Part shown: positions 42,053 to 43,827 of the stretch, piece by piece
Position numbering within the stretch: the first letter of the stretch is position 1
Layout of the letters: each line of letters begins with the position of its first letter
From: Pseudomonadota bacterium
GTDB lineage: Bacteria > Pseudomonadota > Gammaproteobacteria > Burkholderiales > Burkholderiaceae_C
NCBI GenBank assembly: GCA_021845505.1
Contig: JAJZVU010000001.1
Coordinates: forward strand, 62,001-126,000
Length of the DNA stretch: 64,000 nucleotides
Reading direction: 5' to 3'
Program-made: the position numbers and the translations under genes
Notes under the pieces: generated by a model
The model's input: only the letters and a program-made list of their open reading frames with translations
Told to the model about the DNA's origin: nothing
The model's database searches: none

Positions 42053-42493
42053 TCAGAAGGGCTTGACCACCACCATCGGGACGATCACAAACAACGCGAC
42101 GGTGGGAATTTCGTTGAACCAGCGATACCAGCGGTGGCCGTGGCGGTTGCGCCCCTGCTCGAACTGCCGCAGCAGCCGGCGGCAGGCATGGTCGAAGGCC
42201 AGCAGCACCAGCACGAAAGCCAGCTTGACGTGCATCCAGCCGTTGCCCGGCCCGTGCAATCCGACTCCATAGTAGAGCCACAGCACGAGGCCGAAGCCCA
42301 GCGCGGGCACCATCAGGAGGGTCATGAAGCGCAGCAGCTTGCGCGCCATCAGCAGCAAGCGCTCGCGTTCGGCCTGCGCCTGCGGGCCGTCGCCGACCAT
42401 CGCCAGGTTGACATAGATGCGCGGCAGGTAGAAAAGCCCCGCGAACCAGGACACGACAAAAATCACATGCAGCGCTTTGATCCACAGGAACAT
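42053..42493 (-). CDS. hemJ: protoporphyrinogen oxidase HemJ
   Basis: HemJ (146 aa), the membrane protoporphyrinogen IX oxidase of many bacteria that lack HemG/HemY. Four hydrophobic segments; the conserved His is in FLWIKALHVIFVVSWFAGLFYLPRIYV and a conserved Lys in GWMHVKLAFVLVL. Position next to hemB supports the heme assignment. It lies upstream of the ferredoxin-hydrolase pair on the minus strand, 46 bases away. Confidence 0.9.
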   Translation of the reverse strand: MFLWIKALHVIFVVSWFAGLFYLPRIYVNLAMVGDGPQAQAERERLLLMARKLLRFMTLLMVPALGFGLVLWLYYGVGLHGPGNGWMHVKLAFVLVLLAFDHACRRLLRQFEQGRNRHGHRWYRWFNEIPTVALFVIVPMVVVKPF

Positions 42494-42596
42494 CGGGTCG
42501 TCTCGGAAGAATGCGGCCGGTCCGCACGCGCTGCCGCGACGCCCGGCCACGCGCGGCTCAGCGCACATTGTGCCTGCGCCCGCCTGGCGCCGCGCC

Positions 42597-42623
42597 AAAA
42601 AAAGACCCCGGCAAGAGCCGGGG
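42597..42623 (-). terminator. Rho-independent terminator of the minus-strand sRNA
   Basis: Stem CCCCGGC (42606-42612) / GCCGGGG (42617-42623), loop AAGA on the plus strand, with seven T on the minus strand (42597-42603). It lies upstream of hemJ and blocks read-through into it. Confidence 0.9.
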
Positions 42624-42695
42624 TGAACAGCCTTGAGTCGGTTCAAGGCACCCGCTCAGGGAGGAGAAGCGGGAGGAAGCGCCTCGCGGCGGCCA
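42597..42695 (-). ncRNA. putative sRNA on the strand opposite hemB (anti-hemB type), with two CCUCC motifs
   Basis: On the minus strand, a -10-like TATGAG (42702-42707) precedes a region of ordered hairpins ending in a strong terminator. From 5' to 3': a CGCC/GGCG stem closed by a GCGA tetraloop (42680-42691); CCUCC (42672-42676); a CCCGCU/AGCGGG hairpin (42651-42673) with a second CCUCC in its loop (42660-42664); a GCCUUGA/UCAAGGC hairpin (42631-42650); and the terminator stem CCCCGGC/GCCGGGG (42606-42623) with a U-rich tail (to 42597). I recall the anti-hemB motif from betaproteobacteria in just this place and orientation. Position of the 5' end is estimated. No minus-strand gene lies upstream, so this terminator needs its own RNA. 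Confidence 0.65.
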
Positions 42696-42708
42696 CCTGG
42701 ACTCATAG

Positions 42709-43827
<1,119 letters not shown>

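Follow-up and report, generated by a model that had tools for sequence, protein, structure and literature searches.

The window (the whole 64-kb stretch of DNA that was analysed) carries a minus-strand RNA locus between hemB and a PF03653 gene that we take to be hemJ. Searching all 64 kb with Rfam at gathering cut-offs returned two matches, namely a tRNA and this locus, where the covariance model of the anti-hemB RNA (RF02837) matched positions 42676-42598 of the minus strand at 75.9 bits (cut-off 49.5) over its entire length (model positions 1-81 of 81). Because of this full match well above the cut-off, the locus belongs to an RNA family that had already been catalogued, which bears out the family assignment of the original prediction. 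The RNA is divergent from hemB (start at 42826) and does not overlap its coding region, hence it is not antisense there. According to two reports, ncS04, the homologue in Burkholderia cenocepacia, is a discrete, terminated RNA of 105 nt with both ends mapped, for which Hfq binding is reported; the work on Hfq is credited to Ramos et al. 2013 (PMC5688073, PMC4603805). The window RNA resembles ncS04 in its full match to the model, its position beside hemB and its length of about 100 nt. The features of the locus are given in Table 1.

Table 1. Features of the anti-hemB locus and its neighbouring genes (positions in the window)
Feature	Position	Strand	Remarks
anti-hemB sRNA	42597..42700	-	about 101-104 nt; predicted start 42697-42700, by analogy with 105-nt ncS04
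5' hairpin	42674..42698	-	outside Rfam model; flush with seed stem; fold and alignment
Seed hairpin	42651..42673	-	Rfam model, fold and alignment
Loop core CCUCCCUG	42657..42664	-	proposed anti-Shine-Dalgarno seed
Second CCUCC	42672..42676	-	stem junction
Middle hairpin	42630..42649	-	Rfam model and single-strand fold
Intrinsic terminator and T-run	42597..42624	-	stem 42624-42605; 8 pairs, 7 G-C
-35-like GGAACTT	42726..42732	-	RpoE/ECF02-like
-10-like TCTAT	42705..42709	-	spacer 16 from GGAACTT
hemB	42826..43827	+	PF00490 ALAD; divergent neighbour
hemJ-like gene	42053..42493	-	PF03653 UPF0093; downstream neighbour

The strong minus-strand terminator that had been noticed at this site was confirmed, and the three hairpins upstream of it were recovered in the predicted fold. 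Seven T (42603-42597, minus strand) provide a U-rich 3' end, and the predicted folding energy of the 112-nt minus strand is -51 kcal/mol (z -3.37, with 2 of 200 shuffles as good). Both CCUCC strings are also present as described, the one at 42664-42660 in a hairpin loop and the other at 42676-42672.

By searching 60 genomes (including that of the window) with the RF02837 model, we found a match at an E-value of 0.001 in 54 of them, with 52 passing the cut-off; six genomes (G028, G033, G036, G044, G053 and G054) gave no match at this E-value. To the 52 loci above the cut-off we added L054 (45.5 bits) and L055 (45.2 bits), the latter being a second copy, which gives the 54 loci considered below. 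With a DNA pattern built on the seed hairpin, at least 119 further stretches were detected in named genomes, and the matches listed include Paraburkholderia, Variovorax, Polaromonas, Nitrosospira, Thiobacillus and Methylophilales. In 48 of the 54 loci, hemB is found upstream in divergent orientation (within 200 nt in 47); among the six loci without an adjacent hemB, L024 and L050 are located at contig ends, and L014, L047, L051 and L055 have no hemB at all in their 1.5-kb flanks. A downstream hemJ on the same strand is present in 34 of the 54 loci, all within the window's family, and was not found by tblastn in the flanks (1.5 kb or less) of the 20 loci outside this family, for which reason a hemJ attenuator was rejected as a general role. 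The previously suggested link to heme synthesis is thus positional only. Several unusual arrangements were observed. In Nitrosospira briensis (L112) the seed hairpin occurs in tandem, as two minus-strand copies (741-763 and 864-886) 123 nt apart, and the second anti-hemB-like copy L055 (G059:C16) is preceded by TTGACA-N17-TATTCT. A radC RNA (RF01754, 84.2 bits) at 1669-1823 of L056 (G005:C43) is accompanied by a weak anti-hemB match (36.3 bits) with the string CCTCCCTGAG.

To derive a common structure with RNAalifold, we aligned 25 of the 54 loci, picked for diversity. The resulting structure comprises the terminator and two hairpins (the 5' and the seed hairpin, but not the middle one), with 93.4% of cells paired and a covariation of 0.434, compared with 0.202 after shuffling (0 of 500 shuffles as high) and 0.085-0.111 for slid versions of the structure. 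The 5' hairpin, which is absent from the RF02837 model, shows compensatory changes in all seven of its pairs in this alignment, with 94.6% of cells paired. A weaker test, in which an uninterrupted 5' helix was required, detected at least five pairs in 86 of 172 cases versus 25% of shuffles (174 occurrences, two of which had no stem found).

The same loop core, CCUCCCUG, is found in 52 of the 54 loci, and this conservation is partly built in because the search model includes the loop. The second CCUCC had been described as partly paired at a stem edge; more precisely, it straddles two stems, with CCU closing the 3' arm of the 5' hairpin and CC opening the seed stem, because this arm directly abuts the seed stem. 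It occurs at this junction in 31 of the 54 loci (all 28 of the window's genus, together with L045, L047 and L051), and its stem end covaries with the partner strand across families, on which grounds the idea of two working CCUCC motifs was rejected. Of the two proposed motifs, the CU-rich copy in the loop therefore stands as nearly invariant, whereas the other is no separate conserved motif, and the comparison of the loops among relatives, by which the original prediction could have been refuted, likewise gave one conserved CCUCC and one that is not.

Upstream of the predicted start, GGAACTT is combined with a TC-type -10 element, which we take to be the promoter pattern of RpoE (ECF02). The -10 element was formerly placed at TATGAG (42707-42702), which is probably not correct; TCTAT, which fits four of five scored positions, pairs with GGAACTT, and this combination was absent from the original prediction. 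A simple scan for sigma-70 promoters found none in 42200-43200. We assigned promoter scores (0-12) within the 58 nt ending 20 nt before the loop, with thresholds and classes set after the sequences had been seen, to 173 loci, i.e., the 54 from the 60-genome search and the 119 pattern-scan stretches listed (174 occurrences, one of which was too short for scoring). An RpoE-like score of at least 10 was obtained in 83 of these 173 loci (matches listed). By comparison, this score was reached by 1.4% of 3460 dinucleotide shuffles and, when places were drawn at random from these loci, by 0.22% of 3160. Such scores were observed in 24 of 28 loci of the window's genus, 16 of 26 in the rest of the 60-genome set and 43 of the 119 pattern-scan stretches listed. 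By class, the 54 loci of the 60-genome set comprise 40 E, 4 weak E, 4 sigma-70-like and 1 weak sigma-70 promoters and 5 without class, and the 119 pattern-scan stretches listed comprise 27 E, 11 weak E, 25 extended -10, 23 sigma-70-like and 12 weak sigma-70 promoters, with 20 lacking a class and 1 too short. Some extended -10 loci reach an E-pattern score of 10 through GAAACTT, and these may have dual promoters or remnants. The window locus thus differs from ncS04 and its Burkholderia relatives, which have an extended -10 promoter instead of an RpoE-like one. In L188 (from another strain of B. cenocepacia), counting 105 nt back from the T-run leaves 6 nt from TATGAT to the start of the RNA, a gap that supports reading these elements as a promoter.

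Promoter classes were then compared with a quick HemB tree of 133 rows, in which 54 of 129 inner branches are open and L112 (two copies) was labelled by hand according to its upstream copy. One branch, with a support of 98, separates the 24 extended -10 rows from all others. The sister group of the window's genus (34 rows), which includes the named Comamonadaceae for which hemB was available, such as Variovorax, Polaromonas and Rhodoferax, contains 15 sigma-70-like, 5 weak, 13 unassigned and 1 E promoters; two further sigma-70-like rows are placed elsewhere, and E and weak-E rows occupy most other branches. The number of changes needed on the tree is 14 for E versus all others, 5 for the three strong classes alone and 5 when weak classes are pooled with strong ones. 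Judging from these sequences, Burkholderia and many Comamonadaceae have sigma-70-like promoters and probably produce the anti-hemB RNA more constitutively. Consistent with a sigma-70-like (extended -10) promoter in Burkholderia, the level of ncS04 did not change significantly across the seven conditions tabulated in the report, according to which short exposures to low iron, SDS, H2O2, NaCl or low pH mostly did not induce the sRNAs studied (PMC5688073). If the RpoE-like promoter is real, the unchanged level of ncS04 would be accounted for, as the B. cenocepacia locus has a different promoter, and species of the E type would be better hosts for the study of anti-hemB. One row of the tree, L137, comes from a metagenome bin titled Klebsiella pneumoniae, yet its hemB groups with betaproteobacterial rows, implying that the bin is probably mislabelled.

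Sigma-E control was also considered within the window's own genome. RpoE is encoded (269.4 bits, cut-off 236.15), and four other matches to the RpoE model fall below the cut-off. Three overlapping promoter scores of 9 are found upstream of rpoE, and no promoter scoring at least 10 was detected in the 400-500 nt upstream of rpoE, rpoH and degP. Genome-wide, the strict promoter pattern occurs 2 times versus 0 for the reversed pattern and the relaxed one 10 versus 6 times, with no coherent regulon seen among the relaxed-pattern sites of the whole genome. One of these sites precedes a membrane protein that is YccA/BI-1-like by eye. A perfect palindrome, TTAGCACTC-N9-GAGTGCTAA, is situated directly before rpoH (L205, G000:C72) and presumably corresponds to CIRCE, the HrcA element. 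Beyond the window, its contig also holds weak ECF sigma-factor matches of 33.1 bits (L069, G000:C21:56957-57466) and 20.9 bits (L072, G000:C21:42374-42799). With regard to related bacteria, the SigE of Bordetella bronchiseptica is reported to use an E. coli sigma-E promoter (PMC3490749), and a study of B. pertussis describes the MicA-like CT_532, a different sRNA, as not RpoE-dependent and as showing no response to loss of the anti-sigma factor (PMC12235514). Considering that rpoE, rpoH and degP, as likely sigma-E genes, have no promoter scoring at least 10, the lack of a coherent regulon and the RpoE independence of CT_532, sigma-E control of anti-hemB in the window's genus is a good but unproved reading of the sequences. 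A link to stress, which had been raised without knowledge of this promoter, is suggested by the RpoE-like elements, namely to cell-envelope stress and outside Burkholderia and the majority of Comamonadaceae sampled.

Hfq is also encoded in the genome (95.2 bits, cut-off 61.7). In B. pertussis, two CU-rich, Hfq-dependent sRNAs were reported to account for more than 73% of sRNA-mRNA chimeras in RIL-seq, and the targets of both share a Shine-Dalgarno-like motif that is paired in vivo (PMC12235514). Moreover, CU-rich sRNAs of the ncS04 kind were predicted by the authors of the ncS04 study to cover ribosome-binding sites (PMC5688073). By analogy with these sRNAs, start regions of the GGGAGG type would be the expected pairing partners of the anti-hemB loop. 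At odds that we put slightly above even, anti-hemB is a trans-acting sRNA that occludes Shine-Dalgarno sites and is driven by an RpoE-type promoter in the window's genus and by sigma-70-like promoters in Burkholderia and many Comamonadaceae. Transcription would start a few nt after TCTAT from an RpoE-type (envelope-stress) promoter, and the four hairpins of the RNA of about 100 nt would display a single exposed loop, CUCCUCCCUG, whose pairing with GGGAGG-type Shine-Dalgarno sequences of several mRNAs would block ribosome binding, with Hfq probably bound to the U-tail. Acting in trans in this way, anti-hemB would provide the sigma-E response with an inhibitory arm in the window's genus and most deeper lineages sampled. 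Here we infer sigma-E dependence, Shine-Dalgarno pairing by anti-hemB and all of its targets. As for candidate targets, CAGGGAGG-N3-11-ATG is present at 6 places in the genome versus 2 for the reversed pattern, and two of these places stand at the start of long reading frames that match Pfam, one being cydB and the other a LonB-like protease. Among 21 other start regions of cydB, one, that of the nearest relative L220, retains CAGGGAGG (L236 was out of register, and a fragment, L241, distant sequences, L242-L245, and paralogues, L246-L248, were left out). The pattern AGGGAGGAG-N2-10-ATG has no match in the genome. With these two patterns, and with conservation followed for cydB, no conserved target of anti-hemB was found.

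In the window's genus, the same anti-Shine-Dalgarno sRNA might owe its transcription to a housekeeping sigma factor or to an ECF factor other than RpoE, which would place it outside the envelope-stress response. The rpoE, rpoH and degP genes without a comparable promoter, the four additional RpoE-model matches below the cut-off and the sister clades that drive the same RNA from sigma-70-like promoters would all agree with such an arrangement. We nevertheless regard it as rather unlikely, given that GGAACTT (taken as the RpoE motif) is found at a near-fixed distance across many families and that the simple scan of the window region found no sigma-70 promoter.

It is also conceivable that the loop is bound by a protein or by another RNA (e.g., as a sponge or decoy) rather than serving as a seed for pairing with mRNAs. 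An order-wide invariant loop would be expected of a protein site as well, and the lack of a conserved target among the patterns searched points in the same direction; however, in vivo pairing with Shine-Dalgarno-like motifs is described for sister CU-rich sRNAs (PMC12235514) and ncS04 is reported to bind Hfq (PMC5688073), and we consider such a role improbable. A cis element that tunes heme synthesis locally, either as a leader or attenuator of hemJ or as an RNA antisense to a long leader of hemB, appears very unlikely: the adjacency of divergent hemB (48 of 54 loci) and of same-strand hemJ (34 of 54) speaks for it, but no hemJ was found in the flanks searched at the 20 loci beyond this family, there is no overlap of the RNA with the hemB coding sequence, four loci have no hemB in their 1.5-kb flanks and ncS04 is described as a discrete terminated RNA (PMC5688073).

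For the trans-acting, Shine-Dalgarno-occluding sRNA that we favour, a conserved RpoE-like promoter would, if true, provide the RF02837 family with a signal and a testable role. No function or sigma-E promoter for anti-hemB was found in the literature searched, which was largely without subscription papers, and what looks new here is the covarying 5' hairpin beyond the Rfam model, the RpoE-like promoter and the lineage-dependent promoter types. From the tree we infer that the E-type promoter may be the ancestral state. More tentatively, and with a probability that we place somewhat short of even, anti-hemB may be an ancestral sigma-E-dependent repressor of translation in Betaproteobacteria, with the Burkholderia and Comamonadaceae groups having left the envelope-stress regulon separately by promoter replacement; our confidence was lowered slightly because a third of the rows on the Comamonadaceae side are unassigned. 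Anti-hemB would then be a functional counterpart, with an unrelated, loop-borne anti-Shine-Dalgarno seed, of RybB and MicA, which are sigma-E-dependent repressor sRNAs. What is shared is the proposed logic of a repressor sRNA under RpoE, and homology is not claimed; anti-hemB differs from both in that its seed lies in an internal loop. If sister clades do express one conserved sRNA from different types of promoter, this would clearly exemplify rewiring.

Likenesses to other small RNAs were also observed. The loop string CUCCUCCC, which we take to be a feature of the Cuckoo RNAs/CcsR of alphaproteobacteria, is present in 30 of the 54 anti-hemB sequences, including that of the window, and the likeness is one of loop string alone. 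The double-hairpin RNAs ncS03/05/27/62 of the Betaproteobacteria toxic small RNA family (RF02278) likewise combine a CU-rich anti-Shine-Dalgarno sequence with a terminator (PMC5688073). The anti-hemB model cross-matches an RF02278 RNA weakly (28.9 bits). Membership of the window locus in RF02278 was rejected, as the Rfam scan of the window gave RF02837 and a tRNA; the single RF02278 member of the genome is located elsewhere (L002/L073, G000:C50:1359-1419, minus strand, 69 bits). CT_433, one of the two CU-rich sRNAs of B. pertussis, is S17 and was compared with RF02278 in a preprint (PMC11722255, PMC12235514). CT_521 of the same species, likened here by its description, shares a CU-rich seed upstream of the terminator; it is Hfq-dependent, has a Shine-Dalgarno-like motif in its targets and lies between bp3747 and rpoH, not beside hemB (PMC12235514).

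A further C-rich string, UCCCC[UC]UU, was observed in the terminator loop of 14 of the 26 loci outside the window's genus (e.g., L003, L004, L005 and L016) and in 0 of 28 within it. Among the pattern-scan loci listed, it is found in 16 of 27 with E, 5 of 11 with weak E and 2 of 21 with unassigned promoters, versus 0 of 61 others. It may represent a second C-rich seed that was lost in the window's genus.
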